Assembly (NCBI GenBank): GCA_002748665.1
Contig: PDTB01000015.1
Location: 208,191 to 272,190 of the forward strand
Source of the DNA: Dethiosulfovibrio peptidovorans
GTDB taxonomy: Bacteria; Synergistota; Synergistia; Synergistales; Dethiosulfovibrionaceae
Length of the DNA stretch: 64,000 nucleotides
Direction: 5' to 3'
Below, one piece after another: positions 4,768-40,240 of this stretch (position 1 is its first letter; each line of letters begins with the position of its first letter). The translations under genes were made by a program, and so were the position numbers. Under the pieces are notes generated by a model, which worked only from the letters and a program-made list of their open reading frames with translations, made no database searches and was not told the origin of the DNA.

Positions 4768-5601
4768 TCAAGGGCTTAGGGGACACTCTCTTAACCTTTT
4801 TAAATACCCTTCAGGCGCAGCAGTAATTAATATCTTGCTTTCAATATTCGTGTCAACCTCAAAATGCAAAGGTTTTCCATCCCGAGCTCTTCGCCCTTCC
4901 CCTTCACAGAGACGAAGATATTCACGAACCGCTGTTTTTGGGTTATTACCAACACCCCAGGGACGATCAGGAAATGTCGAATCAGGCAGGTCTTCTATGA
5001 GAGTATCAAATACAACGCAATAGCTTCCCTGCGAAACCAAAGGTGCGTACGCTTCCAGCTCAGCCAAAACATGGTCATGGGTATGGTTTGAATCCAACAG
5101 TACAAGGATTTTCTCATACCCCTGCACTCGATCATAGATCTGGCTTATAATCTCATCATCAATACTGTTGCCCTCTACCATATCAAGCTTATGAAACAAA
5201 GGATGAGCTTCAAGAGCGGCTTTGTTGTGAGGACGAATTTCAATATCAAGCCCAACAACTTTTCGACGACTCTTTTGGACGTCAAAATCCTCCCCCGCAT
5301 CAGCCGCATCGCAGTAATCCAATAAAGCGAGCATAGCGGCACTCATGATAAGAGAGCCACCATGAGCTATCCCGGTCTCTACGATGCAATCAGGCCGAAT
5401 TGACCAGATGAGTTCCTGTACAGCAATCATATCCTGAGGATATTGGATAATGGGGCGGCCTAGAGAGAAGAAGTTATACGAATACTTTGCGCAGATCGAC
5501 TCCTCAAGAAAGCACTTCGCCCGACTGCGGAGCTTATCGTTGTCTCTGCTTTCACCAATTCGCTGGGCAACCTCTGTATTGAAATCATGATGATTGTTCA
5601 T
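4768..5601 (-). CDS. CmcI-like SAM-dependent methyltransferase (cephalosporin hydroxylase / rhamnosyl O-methyltransferase family)
   Basis: About 278 residues. It shows FFSLGRPIIQYPQDMIAVQE (residues 43-62) and IVETGIAHGGSLIMSAAML, the SAM-site signature of the CmcI family, then ILVLLDSNHTHDHVLAELEAY. Despite the historical name 'cephalosporin hydroxylase', family members in sugar clusters are O-methyltransferases. I start at ATG 5599-5601, since GGAAGGTGG lies at good spacing from it; the frame is open up to 5646, inside the preceding gene. Its start overlaps the end of the frameshifted methyltransferase by 17 bases, so it depends on that gene's reading frame for coupling. Confidence 0.78.
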   Translation of the reverse strand: MNNHHDFNTEVAQRIGESRDNDKLRSRAKCFLEESICAKYSYNFFSLGRPIIQYPQDMIAVQELIWSIRPDCIVETGIAHGGSLIMSAAMLALLDYCDAADAGEDFDVQKSRRKVVGLDIEIRPHNKAALEAHPLFHKLDMVEGNSIDDEIISQIYDRVQGYEKILVLLDSNHTHDHVLAELEAYAPLVSQGSYCVVFDTLIEDLPDSTFPDRPWGVGNNPKTAVREYLRLCEGEGRRARDGKPLHFEVDTNIESKILITAAPEGYLKRLRECPLSP

Positions 5602-6680
5602 GATCATCCACCTTCCATAATCTGCATCCTGATGCCGCCCGACCAAGGGAGGCTACAATCTCATCTACATAGTTAGAATTCATCACAAATAAATTAAAAA
5701 AACCATCAAGCAATGGCAGAACAGCACCCGGGGATTCTATTTTTATGCCTGTTCCAGGGACAAACATACCCTGTTTCGATGGGTTGATATCAATAAGGTG
5801 GTCTATTTTTGCTCCCATACGTTCCATTAAAAGAGAGAATATGACACCCTTGCTGGCCCCCCCCCCAAACAACTGAAGGGTTGCACCGCCCCCTCTTAAT
5901 CAATTCTCCAAAAAAATTTATGTTTTTCGTAAAGTTCTTGGGCATACAAACAGGCTCCCACACAAAAGGTTGCTGTTTCAGTGACCCTAAATCCGCTACA
6001 ACATATAGATACTGGCCCTCAAAAAATGTCCCCATCTCGTAGATCCTGTCAAAGGCATTTGAGAAGTCAGAAAGCCTGAAGTAATTCACGTGTTCATAGA
6101 AAATATCAAACCAGGCCCGATGCTCACAGATCCAATCAAAACACGGCACTTCTATGTAAATCTTCATCTCTACACCTGGACTCGACAAAGATGCCAAGAA
6201 ATCAAAGGGGTGGTGCAGGTGCTCCAAGACATGCCTGAGAATTAGGCTATCCCCAAAAGAGTCAAAACATGGCTCGTAATATTCTTTACGAATAGAGGGA
6301 TTTTCTCCCTCATAGGCTGGATCAAAACCTACCGCCCGCCCGGTGGTAGATTTTTGCAACATCTCAAAAAAGAAACCTTTGCCACAACCGATCTCAACGA
6401 TTCTCTTTTTGCTGTCAAAATGCCGTTTGACAATGCCAAGCACGCTTTCAAGATGAGCCAAAAACTTTTGCGAGTGGCCTTGCTCGTTCTGGTAAGAACT
6501 ATCGTACACAACACGTCCGGGATCAAACAGTACATTTGTAACAACCCCCGTATCCGTATCCTGAGCGAGGGCGATCTCCCCCTTGGGGCAGTGGATCGCA
6601 GCGTCACGAGTCGCGTACATTTTATTTTGAAAGACAGGGAACTGTTCAGCTCTATACAAAATCCTATCTTCATCTATCAT
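5585..6680 (-). CDS. SAM-dependent C-methyltransferase-like protein, interrupted by a +1 frameshift at a 10-G tract
   Basis: The first frame (6680 to 5790) gives a class I methyltransferase: KRIVEIGCGKGFFFEML (SAM motif I, about 94-110), LRHVLEHLHHPFDF and FYEHVNYFRLSDFS, as in the C-methyltransferases acting on deoxysugars. It loses its C-terminal domain at VVWGGGQQ. The missing domain continues in another frame: GGASKGVIFSLLMERMGAKI through YVDEIVASLG, ending at 5585. The switch point is a run of ten G on the coding strand (5857-5866); nine G would rejoin the frames as VVWGGASKGVIFS. It is either a phase-variable gene in the OFF state or a homopolymer error. Start ATG 6678-6680 overlaps the previous stop (TAATG) with AGGAGG upstream. 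Confidence 0.75.
5857..5866 (-). repeat. homopolymer tract of ten G (coding strand) inside the methyltransferase gene
   Basis: Ten consecutive C on the + strand, equal to G10 in the gene. It sits exactly where the two halves of the methyltransferase change frame. Tracts of this length slip readily during replication and are a classic basis for ON/OFF switching of surface-sugar genes. Confidence 0.9.
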
Positions 6681-7522
6681 TATATATCCTCCTCGTAACG
6701 CCGTAACTTGGTAACATCCCCCCAAAAGGCCATAGGTTCGTAATCCGGGTATGGGTAATAGCCTAAATTCAGGTTTATAGCCCAACCATTCTCCTGTATC
6801 CACCTCTCCACAAGAGAACGGATGGAAACAGGCATACCGGAGGCAAGGTTGACAACACCGAGAGACGCTCTGTGGAGAGCAAAGGAAACAAGATACGACG
6901 CTACATCCTGAACCGACAAATAGTCTCTAAGCTGTTCCCCGGCAGACATGTTAAAAACTCGGTCGCCATCTTGAGTGGCTTGCCTCAGCTGAGAATAGAG
7001 TGTTTTCGAAGGCTGCCCCTCTCCAAAGAGGTAAAAAAGCCGCGCCCAAGTGAATCCAAAAGCCCGCTCTGCCTGCAGAAACTCAAGCTGCTTCCGCAAA
7101 GCGTCCTTTGCGTAGCCATAGGGCGTATGGGGTCTCGTGTCCAGATCCTCACGTAAAGGCCCTGATACGAGGCCATACTCAAAACACGTCCCGACAACCA
7201 CAAGAGACGAAAGCCCTCCTTCAACCATCCCCTTCAAGAAAGCATACTGATGTGGCAGCTCATGTTCAATATGATGCAAAGACTTGTAGTTTGGCAAGCC
7301 TCCCCAAGCCAAATGCAACAAGACATCAGGCTCACCCAAAGCACAAAAAAGAGAGCCCGGCTCTGCATCATAGATATCCATAGCCCGTGCCGCAATATGT
7401 GGTCCCTCAGGCAAACGTCTTTTTTCATGGCCAACGGCGATGATATCGACATCATACCGCCCGAGCTCTAAGACCACATGACGCCCAATAAACCCCGATG
7501 CCCCAGTGACTGCAACTTTCAT
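6680..7522 (-). CDS. NAD(P)-dependent sugar epimerase/reductase (extended SDR)
   Basis: 280 residues with VAVTGASGFIGRHVV (residues 3-17, NAD(P) loop), LLHLAWGG, and the YGYAKDALRKQL active-site segment (Tyr-x-x-x-Lys, about 136-147). Upstream ATGA overlap couples it to the C-methyltransferase. In a CDP-glucose operon such SDRs usually reduce the 4-keto group of the CDP-6-deoxyhexose (as in RfbJ/abequose synthase) and so finish the sugar. That assignment is by context; the sequence alone only supports an SDR acting on a nucleotide sugar. Confidence 0.78.
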   Translation of the reverse strand: MKVAVTGASGFIGRHVVLELGRYDVDIIAVGHEKRRLPEGPHIAARAMDIYDAEPGSLFCALGEPDVLLHLAWGGLPNYKSLHHIEHELPHQYAFLKGMVEGGLSSLVVVGTCFEYGLVSGPLREDLDTRPHTPYGYAKDALRKQLEFLQAERAFGFTWARLFYLFGEGQPSKTLYSQLRQATQDGDRVFNMSAGEQLRDYLSVQDVASYLVSFALHRASLGVVNLASGMPVSIRSLVERWIQENGWAINLNLGYYPYPDYEPMAFWGDVTKLRRYEEDI

Positions 7523-8754
7523 TGAAGAGGCTCAATTCTTTTCAACTCAGGCACAACAGTAACAAAACGCCCTCCCCATTCCCCAACGTAGCAATGCCTC
7601 TGCACGACTTCATCAACGATATTCCAAGGAAACACAATAACCGTCTGAGGTTTACGCTCTCGCAACTTCTCTGGAGACACAATAGGGATACGACTTCCAG
7701 GTAAAAACTTCCCCTGTTTTGAAGGAGCGCCGTCACAGACGTAGGGCAACAGATCCGAGCGAATACCAGAATAATTTAAAAGCGTATTGCCCTTTGCCGC
7801 AGCTCCGTATGCTGCCACGCTACGCTTGAGGCGTTTTTGCTCGATAAGATACATGACAAATTTATTTTTGATACTTTCCGCCTTTTCCTGGAAATTTTTA
7901 TAGACATCAATCCCCCAAAGACCAAAGCGCTTTTCTTCCTCAAGCAACGCCTGTACTGAAGGAGATTCACGACGCCCGTCATTCTCGTGACAAGCGTATA
8001 TTCGCAAACTGCCTCCATGTGTGGACAAGCTCTCCACGTGGAAAACCCTCAAGCCCGATTTTTCAAAGATACGGCGAACAGTCCCCAAAGAAAGATACGA
8101 AAAATGCTCGTGATAGATCGTGTCGAACTGCATGTGCCGGATCAGTTCAAGCAGGTGAGGGAACTCCATTGTGATGCTACCTGCGGGCTTGAGAACTACC
8201 TTAAGGCCCTTGACAAAATCATTGATGTCGGGCACGTGCGCCAGGACATTGTTACCCACCAAAAGATCCGCCATTCTCCCCTCAGCCGCCAATTCCTGCG
8301 CAAGCCCCGACCCGAAAAACTTCTGCACCACAGGGATACCGAGCCTCTCAGCCGCTCTCGCTGTGTCGGATGCGGGCTCGATACCAAGGCATGGAATCCC
8401 CCTCTCAACAAAATTTCTCAGTAGATATCCGTCGTTCGACGCAATCTCGATCACAAAGCTTGATCGGTCCAACGAAAGCTTCTTCGTGATATCTTCCGCA
8501 TAGAGGGCTGCATGCCGAAGCCAGCTGCTCGAGACAGATGAAAAGTAGGCGTAGTCGGACCGGAAGAGCTGATTCGCCGCAGCAAAGTCCTCGGTTTGCA
8601 CCAGCCAGCATTTATTACACACGAAAACTCTAAGAGGGAAATACACTTCAGGATTGTGAAGATCGTCTTTTTTAAGGTACGAGTTAGATGGCGGTGCACA
8701 ACCAAGGTCTATAAACACATGTTTCAAAACCCTTCCACAATGTCGACACTTCAT
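7519..8754 (-). CDS. sugar C-methyltransferase (NovU/TylC3-like)
   Basis: 411 residues with the three-part layout of NDP-deoxysugar C-methyltransferases. An N-terminal zinc-binding region has CRHCGRVL (3-10) and CNKCWLVQTEDF. The SAM-binding domain has VIEIASNDGYLLRNF and NVLAHVPDINDFVKGL, then YHEHFSYLSLGTVRRIFEKSG. The C-terminal domain has VAAYGAAAKGNTLLNY and CDGAPSKQGKFLPGSRIPI. Family members methylate the carbon next to a keto group of an NDP-4-keto sugar, giving a branched sugar. It overlaps the epimerase genes on both sides (ATGA), so all are made together. The frameshifted gene at 5585-6680 ends in a similar C-terminal domain. Confidence 0.85.
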   Translation of the reverse strand: MKCRHCGRVLKHVFIDLGCAPPSNSYLKKDDLHNPEVYFPLRVFVCNKCWLVQTEDFAAANQLFRSDYAYFSSVSSSWLRHAALYAEDITKKLSLDRSSFVIEIASNDGYLLRNFVERGIPCLGIEPASDTARAAERLGIPVVQKFFGSGLAQELAAEGRMADLLVGNNVLAHVPDINDFVKGLKVVLKPAGSITMEFPHLLELIRHMQFDTIYHEHFSYLSLGTVRRIFEKSGLRVFHVESLSTHGGSLRIYACHENDGRRESPSVQALLEEEKRFGLWGIDVYKNFQEKAESIKNKFVMYLIEQKRLKRSVAAYGAAAKGNTLLNYSGIRSDLLPYVCDGAPSKQGKFLPGSRIPIVSPEKLRERKPQTVIVFPWNIVDEVVQRHCYVGEWGGRFVTVVPELKRIEPLQ

Positions 8755-9314
8755 AGCAGAATCCCATTATAATTAAAATCTAAAAAAGACAGCTCTTTAT
8801 CGCGGTCTGACCTGTCTGAAAGTTCCAAAGGCCATGTGATACCGATTATCTTATCCATCACATTTACCCCTCCTTCACTGTCGGGGCAATAGGGCGCCGT
8901 GTGAAGATAAAATAACTCACTTTCTGGTTCTAAAACCTGAAAACCATGAGCACACCCCTCAGGGATGACCAGCATTTTTTTAGACTCAGGCGCTAGCTCC
9001 TCCCCGTACCACTGTAAAAACGTAGGCGATCCCTGACGAAGATCGACAGCGACATCAAAGACACGCCCCCTCAGGCAGCGAACGAATTTCATCTCCCCAT
9101 GAGGGGGATACTGAAAATGCATCCCACGGACAGCCCCAACCTGATCGGTACGGGAGTGATTGATCTGAACAATGTGCTTCTCGCCAAGTAGGGGAGCAAG
9201 CTCTTCTGCACAGAAAAAGCGAGCAAAGGCTCCCCGATGGTCTTCAAAGGATTGCGTCTCCACCACGAAAACACCAGCTATAGGCGTTTTGGAAATGTAC
9301 ATTTTTTTGTCCAT
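8751..9314 (-). CDS. dTDP-4-dehydrorhamnose 3,5-epimerase family (RfbC-like), probably acting on a CDP-sugar
   Basis: 187 residues of the cupin-type 3,5-epimerase family: IVQINHSRTDQVGAVRGMHFQ (catalytic His in RGMHFQ, about residue 65), VFDVAVDLRQGSPTF, EGCAHGFQVLEPES, and WPLELSDRDK-like ending (here WPLELSDRSDRDKELSFLDF). Normally it epimerises C3 and C5 of a 4-keto-6-deoxyhexose nucleotide. With rfbF and rfbG immediately upstream, and no rmlA/B/D in view, the substrate is more likely CDP- than dTDP-linked (inference). The coding region overlaps the end of rfbG by 37 bases; Met5 at 9302 is an alternative start. Confidence 0.82.
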   Translation of the reverse strand: MDKKMYISKTPIAGVFVVETQSFEDHRGAFARFFCAEELAPLLGEKHIVQINHSRTDQVGAVRGMHFQYPPHGEMKFVRCLRGRVFDVAVDLRQGSPTFLQWYGEELAPESKKMLVIPEGCAHGFQVLEPESELFYLHTAPYCPDSEGGVNVMDKIIGITWPLELSDRSDRDKELSFLDFNYNGILL

Positions 9315-10399
9315 GATAGTCTTGCAGCCGAGGCATCCGTGACATACGCCTTCAGGTGCTCGTCGCTACGAACGTCTCCCCTTTCCATAAAGCTTCTATA
9401 CCATGTTGCAGTATAATACATCGATTTTTCGAGCCCCCATACAGGCTTCCATTCAAGCTCTTTCTGAGCCTTTTCGCTATTCAGGGAGAGAAAGGGGGCT
9501 TCATGTAGGTTTTTACGGTCAGACACATCACGCCACCGCAATTCGGGATAGTGCGATGCAAAAAGTTCGAGTATATGGGAAACCGTATTGCCACTTCCCT
9601 GGGCAGGCCCAAAATTCCAAGCTGTGGCATATTGCTCCCCCCGTTGGAGAAGTTTTTCTCCAAGAAGAAGATAGCCGCTTAGACAGTCAAGTACGTGCTG
9701 CCAGGGACGGGTAGCCTGGGGAGATCGAATTTCTAAAAGGTTCTTTTTTTCGATAGATCGCACCGCATCAGGTATGAGACGATCCTGAGACCAGTCTCCG
9801 CCACCTATAACATTTCCAGCCCGAGCAGAGGCAATGAAAGTTCTTTTTTCATGAGCAAAGAAAGATTTTCGATAGCTGTCTACAGCAATTTCACAGGCCG
9901 CTTTGGATGCGCTGTAGGGGTCATGCCCCCCAAGGGAATCGGCTTCATCATACCCGATAGGTCTTTCCTGCTCTCGGTAAACCTTATCAGTGGTGATGAC
10001 AAGGACTGCTCGTAGGGATTCACAGAAGCGACAAGCCTCCAAAAGGTTGAGAGTACCCATGAGGTTGCTGTTCCATGTCCCCATGGGGTCCAGATAGGAA
10101 GCCCTGACAAGGGGCTGCGCCGCCAGATGAAATATCATCTCCGGTTGTTCTTTCTTCAGGATCTCTGTGATAGATTGCAAGTCGCATATATTCAGACGAT
10201 ATTCCCTAATGCTGTTATGGAGGAGATCCCAATGGTTTGGTTCCGTGGAAGGGTCCAAAGCTAATCCAGCCACATTTCCACCGAGACGTATAAGCCAGTG
10301 TACGAGCCAGCTTCCTTTAAAGCCCGTGTGTCCGGTGACAAGAATCTTAGTGTTATCGTAAACCTCACCAAAGAGACGCCTCACTTCCAGAGCCTCCAC
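9278..10399 (-). CDS. rfbG: CDP-glucose 4,6-dehydratase
   Basis: 373 residues, extended SDR. ILVTGHTGFKGSWLVHWL (about 19-36) is the characteristic NAD loop of CDP-glucose dehydratases (GHTGFKGSWL). It is followed by FHLAAQPLVRASY, a TDKVYREQE segment and DPYSASKAACEIAVDSYR (Tyr-x-x-x-Lys). It converts CDP-glucose to CDP-4-keto-6-deoxyglucose, the entry to CDP-dideoxy and branched hexoses. It begins with a GTG inside the last codons of rfbF (19-base overlap), so it is translationally coupled to the enzyme that makes its substrate. Confidence 0.93.
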   Translation of the reverse strand: MEALEVRRLFGEVYDNTKILVTGHTGFKGSWLVHWLIRLGGNVAGLALDPSTEPNHWDLLHNSIREYRLNICDLQSITEILKKEQPEMIFHLAAQPLVRASYLDPMGTWNSNLMGTLNLLEACRFCESLRAVLVITTDKVYREQERPIGYDEADSLGGHDPYSASKAACEIAVDSYRKSFFAHEKRTFIASARAGNVIGGGDWSQDRLIPDAVRSIEKKNLLEIRSPQATRPWQHVLDCLSGYLLLGEKLLQRGEQYATAWNFGPAQGSGNTVSHILELFASHYPELRWRDVSDRKNLHEAPFLSLNSEKAQKELEWKPVWGLEKSMYYTATWYRSFMERGDVRSDEHLKAYVTDASAARLSWTKKCTFPKRL

Positions 10400-11154
10400 G
10401 GGGCTTTGCCGGAAATCCAGAGTTCTTCAAGCTGATTTTTTTCCCTCAGGGTATCCATGGGTTGCCAAAAACCGGAGTGACAGTAGGCCATAAGCTGATT
10501 ATCCCGAGCTAGGTGCTCCAGAGGCTCCCGTTCAAGGCTGGTGCCATCCCCTTCAAGATAGTCGAAAACCTCCGGTTCCATAACGAAGAACCCCCCATTG
10601 ATCCATGTACCGTCTCCTTTGGGCTTCTCCAAGAAGCTACGAACAGAACCACTTTTTTGCAGATCAAGGGAACCGAATCTCCCCGGAGCCTGAACAGCTG
10701 TTACGGTAGCAAGTTTGCCGTGATTTTCGTGGAATTTGACCAGAGCACCGATATCAATGTCCGCTACGCCATCTCCGTAGGTGAGGAGAAACGTTGCATT
10801 ACCAACGAACTCCCGAACCCGCTTCACTCGGCCTCCGGTAAGTGTATGTTCTCCTGTGTCCACCAAGGTTACGCGCCAAGGTTCCGCCGAATTAGAGTGG
10901 AACTCCACCTTGTTTCTGCAGAGATCCACGGTGATGTTAGACATGTGCATACAATAGTTTACGAAGTATTCCTTGATGATATATCCTTTATATCCAAGAC
11001 ATATGACAAAGTCATTGAAGCCAAAAAAAGAGTAGAGTTTCATGATGTGCCAGAGGATGGGCGAACCTCCGATTTCAACCATAGGTTTGGGTTTGAGCAC
11101 AGTTTCTTCACTTAGCCGGGTGCCAAGGCCTCCGGCAAGAATGATAGTTTTCAT
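10381..11154 (-). CDS. rfbF: glucose-1-phosphate cytidylyltransferase
   Basis: 257 residues, usual family length. It opens MKTIILAGGLGTRLSEETVLKPKPMVEIGG, shown here by the nucleotidyltransferase motif AGGLGTRLSE and the KPKPMVEIGG lysine segment, then HIMKLYSFFGFNDFVICLGYKGYIIKEYF cut short as GFNDFVICLGYKGYIIKEYF. FLEKPKGDGTWINGGFFVME is typical of RfbF. It makes CDP-glucose from CTP and glucose-1-phosphate. The ATG start follows GAGGGAGGATCC, a good ribosome site, and this gene probably heads the CDP-sugar block within the longer operon. Confidence 0.93.
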   Translation of the reverse strand: MKTIILAGGLGTRLSEETVLKPKPMVEIGGSPILWHIMKLYSFFGFNDFVICLGYKGYIIKEYFVNYCMHMSNITVDLCRNKVEFHSNSAEPWRVTLVDTGEHTLTGGRVKRVREFVGNATFLLTYGDGVADIDIGALVKFHENHGKLATVTAVQAPGRFGSLDLQKSGSVRSFLEKPKGDGTWINGGFFVMEPEVFDYLEGDGTSLEREPLEHLARDNQLMAYCHSGFWQPMDTLREKNQLEELWISGKAPWRLWK

Positions 11155-39159: not shown

Positions 39160-40240
39160 ATGGGGTCAAACGTTCCAGTTCCGAAAGATGACGTTGAAAA
39201 ATCAGCGTTGGTACCTTTTTTCAACAGTATTACCTTCAGAGTTATGTTGGCTTTTTCCATCGTGGCGTTGTTGCCCGTAGTCTCAATCAGCCCCGTCATG
39301 CATGTCATCAACAGCAAGTACGAGCACCAGATAGACAACGAGGTCACCAAGGTCCCTACGGGCATCGCTATCTATCTCAAATCCATTCAAGAGACGGCGA
39401 GCATGCTCTCAAAACAGACCACTATTAAAAATTCTGGAACTTCTTTGGTGTCCTACGTACATCTGGAGGCCCAACCTCCAAAAACAAAGTCCGTATGGAT
39501 CCAAAACTCTATGGCCCTCAAGCCAGGATAATCCACGAAGATTTCAAAAGCTTCGTCCAAAGCAGCCCCTCTATCTCGTTCTTTTCCCTTGGAACAGAGG
39601 CCCAGGGCGGATACATGTCGTATCCCATGTCGGATCGTCCTCCAGGATACGATCCACGGACTCGAAGCTGGTATAAGCTCTGCAAAAACGCGCCTAACGG
39701 CAAGACCTTCTCCAATCCCCGCGCACCCCAAACGATAGGAAGTCATGCATCAGATTTCGATATTCCCGGTTACGAGAGTCCTAAGACAGGTCTCCGCCGG
39801 AAAGAGATAATTTGAGAGGGACAGAACCTTCTGGAACGCTCATTTTGTGCTGTAGTCTACGAATAAGGATCCTGGCTGGACATACATCGGTATCGTGGAT
39901 GACAAGGAATATACCCTGATGGGACGTGGTCTCAGGGTGTTGATCATGGTGTTGTTTCTCGATGGCCTTGCGGTTTCAATCGTTATAGCTCTTCTTACCA
40001 CATATCGCCGCCATATCAGAAGAGCAAGCGACATCGCCAGAGGAGATGGCCGTCGGAGTACAGAGCATGGGCCAATCGATCGACGAAGTCCTCAACGCAA
40101 AGGAATCTTTAAATAAAACAGCTGAAGAAAATAACCACTTTGCAGATATGATTACCGACGTCTCTTAATCCATTACGACGACGACACAGGAACTCCAACG
40201 TCTTTTGGAGAGCTTTACCTTGCAAAAAACGGGTAAATAA
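39160..40240 (+). pseudogene. decayed methyl-accepting chemotaxis protein (Cache sensor)
   Basis: Pieces in different frames align with one chemoreceptor. The first frame has a TM (FRVMLAFSIVALLPVVSISP). A shifted frame has a Cache text (GYMSYPMSDRPPGYDPRTRSWY, shortened here to PPGYDPRTRSWY). A third has TM2 and HAMP start (GLRVLIMVLFLDGLAVSIVI). The end reads ESLNKTAEENNHFADMITDV, then a nonsense TAA, then TTTQELQRLLESFTL, a typical MCP tail. Multiple stops and a missing signalling hairpin show it is non-functional; loss is fairly recent, as text is still readable. Confidence 0.82.

Follow-up and report, generated by a model that had tools for sequence, protein, structure and literature searches.

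The DNA analysed, a stretch of 64,000 nucleotides from Dethiosulfovibrio peptidovorans (hereafter the window), carries on its minus strand a nucleotide-sugar gene cassette in which one methyltransferase gene is out of frame as assembled (Table 1). The N-terminal frame starts at an ATG at 6680, enters a run of exactly 10 Gs as V-V-W-G-G-G, continues after WGGG with an unrelated tail of 21 residues and terminates at 5790-5792. From the tract onwards, the C-terminal frame meets no stop codon until 5585-5587. The tract thus lies inside the gene, and its length sets the reading frame. Besides G10, no lesion was seen in either half. G10 is the longest homopolymer of the window, where the next G or C run has 7 bases and the longest A run 8.

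Table 1. Features of the split methyltransferase gene and its neighbours in the window.
Feature	Position	Strand	Remarks
G10 tract	5857..5866	minus (C10 on the plus strand)	codes for W-G-G-A in motif WGGASKG; the reading frame changes here
Methyltransferase, N-terminal frame as assembled	5790..6680	minus	296 aa; SAM-binding domain plus 21-residue out-of-frame tail; Pfam Methyltransf_23, E 9.3e-11, above cut-off
Methyltransferase, C-terminal frame	5585..5872	minus	C-methyltransferase C-terminal domain; weak match to Pfam Methyltransf_14, E 2.4e-4, 21.4 bits, below the cut-off of 23.5
CmcI-like / rhamnosyl O-methyltransferase family gene	4768..5607	minus	RMNT_CmcI 281 bits; NF045824 only 66.6 of 400 bits
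NAD-dependent epimerase/dehydratase	6680..7522	minus	stop codon overlaps the methyltransferase ATG (TAATG)
Sugar C-methyltransferase, intact	7519..8754	minus	Methyltransf_13/23/14; C-terminal domain the same as that of the split gene
RmlC-like 3,5-epimerase	8751..9314	minus	TIGR01221 152.6 bits, just under the cut-off of 155.75
CDP-glucose 4,6-dehydratase (rfbG)	9278..10399	minus	TIGR02622 above cut-off
Glucose-1-phosphate cytidylyltransferase (rfbF)	10381..11154	minus	TIGR02623 above cut-off

A genome collection with one genome per species (84,980 species) was scanned with the N-terminal piece; 116 relatives were confirmed, and the best 80 of these were examined. Because scan and confirmation used the N-terminal piece alone, the frame of the C-terminal half had no influence on which relatives were selected. 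In all 80, a single ORF ran through both halves and the motif between them, with 84-97 residues from the W of the motif to the end of the protein, and the C-terminal half was 42-60% identical to the C-terminal piece of the window. The halves meet at WG[GACS][AGS][SA]KG in every one of the 80, the motif that is encoded in the window by the tract. It reads exactly WGGASKG in 55 of the 80 and retains W-G and K-G in all of them; in an alignment of 45 sequences out of the 80, W267, G268, K272 and G273 were invariant. Broken copies numbered 0 among the 80 examined, which puts the upper 95% bound on the broken share at about 3.7%.

These comparisons confirmed the original prediction that one methyltransferase is split over two frames: a chance juxtaposition of two genes was ruled out, as both halves form one ORF in 80/80 relatives, and the possibility that relatives lack the C-terminal half was excluded. 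The point of the split had been predicted to be G10. Because the W of the motif is present in 80/80 relatives, the frame change can be placed within the tract and not at a nearby G5; a change at G5 would replace this W and was ruled out. With nine Gs the junction had been read as WGGASKGVIFS, correctly so, since WGGASKG is the motif found in relatives. A long homopolymer is also a plausible site for ribosomal frameshifting or transcriptional slippage, by which some full-length protein could be made from G10, and the local RNA fold is only mildly more stable than shuffled sequences (z -1.49). However, a frame change occurs there in 0/80 relatives, so recoding is no feature of the family, and we regard it as very improbable.

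The SAM-binding domain scored above the Pfam cut-off in the window piece and in all three relatives scanned, namely L063 (Pusillimonas minor), L103 and L110 (each a Chlorobiaceae MAG). Methyltransf_14 was above its cut-off in L063 only (26.4 versus 23.5 bits) and below it in L103, L110 and the C-terminal piece of the window. A possible likeness to sugar 3-C-methyltransferases lies in the Methyltransf_14 C-terminal domain and in a weak match of L063, over the SAM domain, to the structure 4rv9 (D-mycarose 3-C-methyltransferase; E 8.8e-5); 5t64 was matched at only E 0.061. Unlike sugar C-methyltransferases, the window gene, a putative sugar methyltransferase, showed no match to the zinc-binding domain Methyltransf_13: at E 0.01 there was none in its N-terminal piece, nor in L063, L103 or L110. 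No solved structure matched the N-terminal piece at E 0.001.

The neighbouring genes recur with the methyltransferase. Among the 80 relative loci, some of them cut by contig ends, we found matches to the CmcI-like gene in 75, the C-methyltransferase in 74 (including three weak cross-matches, in L032, L041 and L085, to the homologue of the split gene itself), the RmlC-like gene in 71, the epimerase in 71 (43 of these matches are under 36% identical, hence not surely the same enzyme), rfbG in 67 (a few only about 25% identical) and rfbF in 66. The cassette looks like a widely transferred CDP-sugar module, to judge from these gene contents. On plasmid p1 of Desulfolutivibrio sulfodismutans (L276, 6058-6812), the CmcI-like gene matched in two frames, a frameshift; it follows an intact relative of the methyltransferase and is absent from the gene table, which is incomplete.

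Within the phylum, the gene was present in 1 of 185 genomes, the window's own; in the others searched there was no copy, only two remote matches (28-30% identical). It was therefore probably acquired from outside the phylum, and there is no near relative to compare. The gene was also sought in the groups to which three of the relatives belong, with matches in 4 of 86 genomes (leaving out 14 further genomes with weak matches), 2 of 275 (one only 39% identical) and 8 of 257 (two only 34% identical). No internal stop codon appeared in any match listed from these three groups, which overlap with the 80: the query genomes are included, and at least two more resemble L034 and L097 by their linkers.

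How a long G run could come to lie at the junction is suggested by the motif itself. The codons for W-G-G-A are TGG GGN GGN GCN and hence always G-rich. An in-frame run of nine Gs, written with the same codons (GGG GGG), was found in 2 of the 80 relatives examined, P. minor and the L103 MAG; therefore, the run can arise from codon choice. In the window's ORFs of at least 200 residues, GGG makes up 377 of 1520 Gly codons, and GGG-GGG 8 of 132 Gly-Gly pairs. A nine-G run at the motif would need no selection, and a single slip would turn it into ten.

We also compared the tract with the rest of the genome, a draft of 2.06 Mb in 48 contigs. Genome-wide there are 39 runs of G8, 12 of G9, 3 of G10 and 1 of G11, a smooth fall with length. 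Of the 16 tracts of at least G9, six lie in frame within Pfam domains (GGDEF, creatininase, patatin, DprA, H+-pyrophosphatase and CobD), and another three sit in ORFs that are likewise intact (G10 in a PseG-like gene, the others in a flagellin-like protein of 930 residues and in a 192-residue ORF read on the C strand); at least 9 of the 16 are thus in frame in this assembly, and, leaving the methyltransferase tract aside, 9 of 15 are in intact ORFs. Two lie near or before a gene start, one at a sigma-70 factor and one at another gene, presumably for a TRAP-type small permease; three are non-coding or ambiguous, and two are in broken genes, the methyltransferase and L112. The G8 tracts were inspected by ORF alone, 30 of the 39. 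G10 did not stand out as an outlier: it is neither longer nor placed otherwise than codon use and the genome background predict. A long G tract in this genome is therefore not enough to mark a contingency gene.

The other broken gene with a tract, L112 (G000:C5 around 7926), is a truncated copy of a membrane protein with two frame changes, one of them at a G9. Some 250 residues at the start of the intact paralogue (437 residues, on C21) are missing from it, and its piece matched no named Pfam family; a transporter would be our guess. Considered as a second tract-broken gene of a multi-locus system, L112 was rejected and read as a pseudogene, given the missing N-terminal part and the extra frame change. 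At 39160-40240 of the window, several frame changes and stop codons mark what looks like a decayed gene, two pieces of which matched no Pfam family; we would guess at a sensor. Genes with several lesions, these two, therefore exist in the genome.

Other tracts were noted in passing. A second sugar locus of the genome (G000:C19:48972-50485, L120 and L150) has long G tracts: the PseG-like gene (TIGR03590, below cut-off) has G10 and, ~1.5 kb from it, a PseC gene has G8 (TIGR03588, above cut-off), both tracts being in frame. The G9 at the sigma-70 factor lies just upstream of its likely ATG (L127 around 1501, G000:C24:37877) and could affect ribosome binding. A genome of the same order and another family (G032) has 21 distinct places with at least 10 Gs among the matches listed; 4 of the 8 inspected were in no ORF of at least 100 residues. 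G9 starts numbered 75 in that genome versus 3-21 in the window's genus.

The background bears on whether the tenth G is an error of sequencing or assembly, the organism having an in-frame tract and an intact gene. A single base, in the window's longest homopolymer, is all the damage seen; apart from it the two halves are intact and align with relatives from end to end, and the genome is a 48-contig draft. With one assembly, a single homopolymer miscall would look identical to a slip. On the other side, tracts of 9-11 bases elsewhere in the same assembly are in frame in conserved genes, for example the G11 in CobD and the G10 in the PseG-like gene. Six such tracts keep the frame of a conserved domain, so the assembly is not in general at fault at long G runs, and the case for a systematic homopolymer error is weakened. 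We consider an error at this tract somewhat unlikely.

Repeats of another kind occur at the same junction in relatives. The L110 Chlorobiaceae MAG (CAIJVD010000003.1, 8750-8849) has a perfect (AGAAC)20 array, in frame and reading as a repeat of EQNRT, in the linker 12 bases before WGGASKG; in that genome it is the only AGAAC array of at least 5 copies. A unit gained or lost there would shift the frame. Degenerate AGAAC linkers were found in L103, in L248 and, weakly, in L247 (the last two being genomes of the same Chlorobiaceae family), and also in Billgrantia (L099) and a Desulfobulbaceae MAG (L095); L103 has the degenerate linker and nine Gs together. In a count over all 80 loci, 1.22 Mb in total, the methyltransferase gene held 3 of the 12 repeats that qualified, against a 7.8% share of the sequence (binomial P 0.06, with repeat thresholds set after the L110 array had been seen and trinucleotides left out). 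This enrichment is not significant; it is suggestive and no proof. The junction may be slippage-prone across phyla, and the L110 array favours phase variation.

These repeats bear on the original prediction that the gene is a phase-variable switch, in which slipped-strand mispairing would turn the methyltransferase on and off from cell to cell and so vary the sugar methylation pattern, the sequenced template being mostly OFF. The gene belongs to a class with known poly-G switches: PMC8437040 describes Cj1426 of Campylobacter as a phase-variable capsule heptose methyltransferase, and reports measured changes in tract length, with 8 of the 29 tracts located in the capsule and LOS clusters. Like Cj1426, the window gene is a sugar methyltransferase gene in a polysaccharide-type locus, here a nucleotide-sugar cassette, with an intragenic G run in which each base changes the frame. 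Slippery repeats also occur at this junction in relatives from other phyla, as (AGAAC)20 in L110 and as G9 in L063 and L103, and the singularity of the L110 array in its genome, together with the 3/12 repeats in the gene, points the same way.

By comparison with Campylobacter, the evidence here comes from a single assembly with a single long tract in the window; of the genome's 15 other long tracts, 9 are in intact ORFs elsewhere. Tracts in this genome show no concentration in surface genes (the six in conserved domains belong to unrelated proteins), their numbers fall smoothly with length, and all 80 relatives examined are in frame. The repeat enrichment misses significance under post hoc thresholds, the G9 cases follow from the coding of the motif, and the host of (AGAAC)20 is a MAG in which the array was seen once. 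Of the marks of a contingency gene, the window gene has a tract that sets the frame, and not one that goes beyond the genome background. A switch at this gene is, in our estimate, somewhat unlikely, about as probable as an error.

Contingency genes of the Neisseria opa type carry pentanucleotide repeats, and the L110 array resembles them in that a change by one unit would move the reading frame; it differs in lying in a linker inside an enzyme and in being known from one sequence. A broader proposal is that the methyltransferase is a travelling phase-variable gene of the widespread CDP-sugar cassette, the hinge ahead of the C-terminal domain and the motif at its start being a hot spot for repeats that differ between lineages (poly-G here, a pentanucleotide in Chlorobiaceae), so that in several phyla a single sugar methylation, together with the adjoining CmcI-like step, would be turned on and off. 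This we hold to be unlikely.

We tentatively prefer, at somewhat less than even confidence, that G10 is a real OFF allele, in which a +1 slip lengthened a run of nine Gs. Such a run would exist because the conserved W-G-G-A happened to be written TGG GGG GGG GCC, and a +1 slip would have made it G10. No result shows that the tract is kept as a switch, and the one-off slip is preferred over it. Against this reading, the C-terminal half lacks the decay expected of a long-dead gene.

On the one-off slip, the OFF product of 296 residues would keep the SAM domain without the C-terminal one, and its reaction would be expected to fail; judging from the family, the truncated product is probably inactive. 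The original prediction further held that the OFF state alters coupling to the CmcI-like gene. The geometry fits: the C-terminal frame overlaps the start of that gene, its stop codon (5585-5587) lying past the ATG (5607 or 5601) and a putative ribosome-binding site lying inside the C-terminal coding stretch, and in the OFF state this overlap would be replaced by a premature stop ~180 nt upstream of the ATG. If the two genes are translationally coupled, the CmcI-like gene may be translated less. We infer this weaker coupling, and also that the G10 allele could revert by slippage. The outcome would be cells adding fewer methyl groups to one cassette sugar.

The first reading of the locus had added that such switches were not reported for this phylum. 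Among the open-licence papers listed, we found no report of phase variation in Synergistetes/Synergistota, and in the open-licence literature no paper combining Dethiosulfovibrio with phase variation. Mentions of Synergistetes in PMC3711429, PMC3234257 and PMC2996958 are table rows, an organism list and a reference title, none of them on phase variation there. A scan of viral contigs with the tract pattern gave no match. Phase variation has been studied mainly in pathogens, as stated in PMC3711429. If the tract does not vary, the gene would be a clear example of a G-rich conserved motif mimicking a phase-variable gene in draft genomes. If it does vary, it would represent slippage-based switching of a sugar methyltransferase outside those pathogens; given its spread over many phyla, the cassette would then supply test cases for how a conserved Gly-rich motif becomes a mutational switch.
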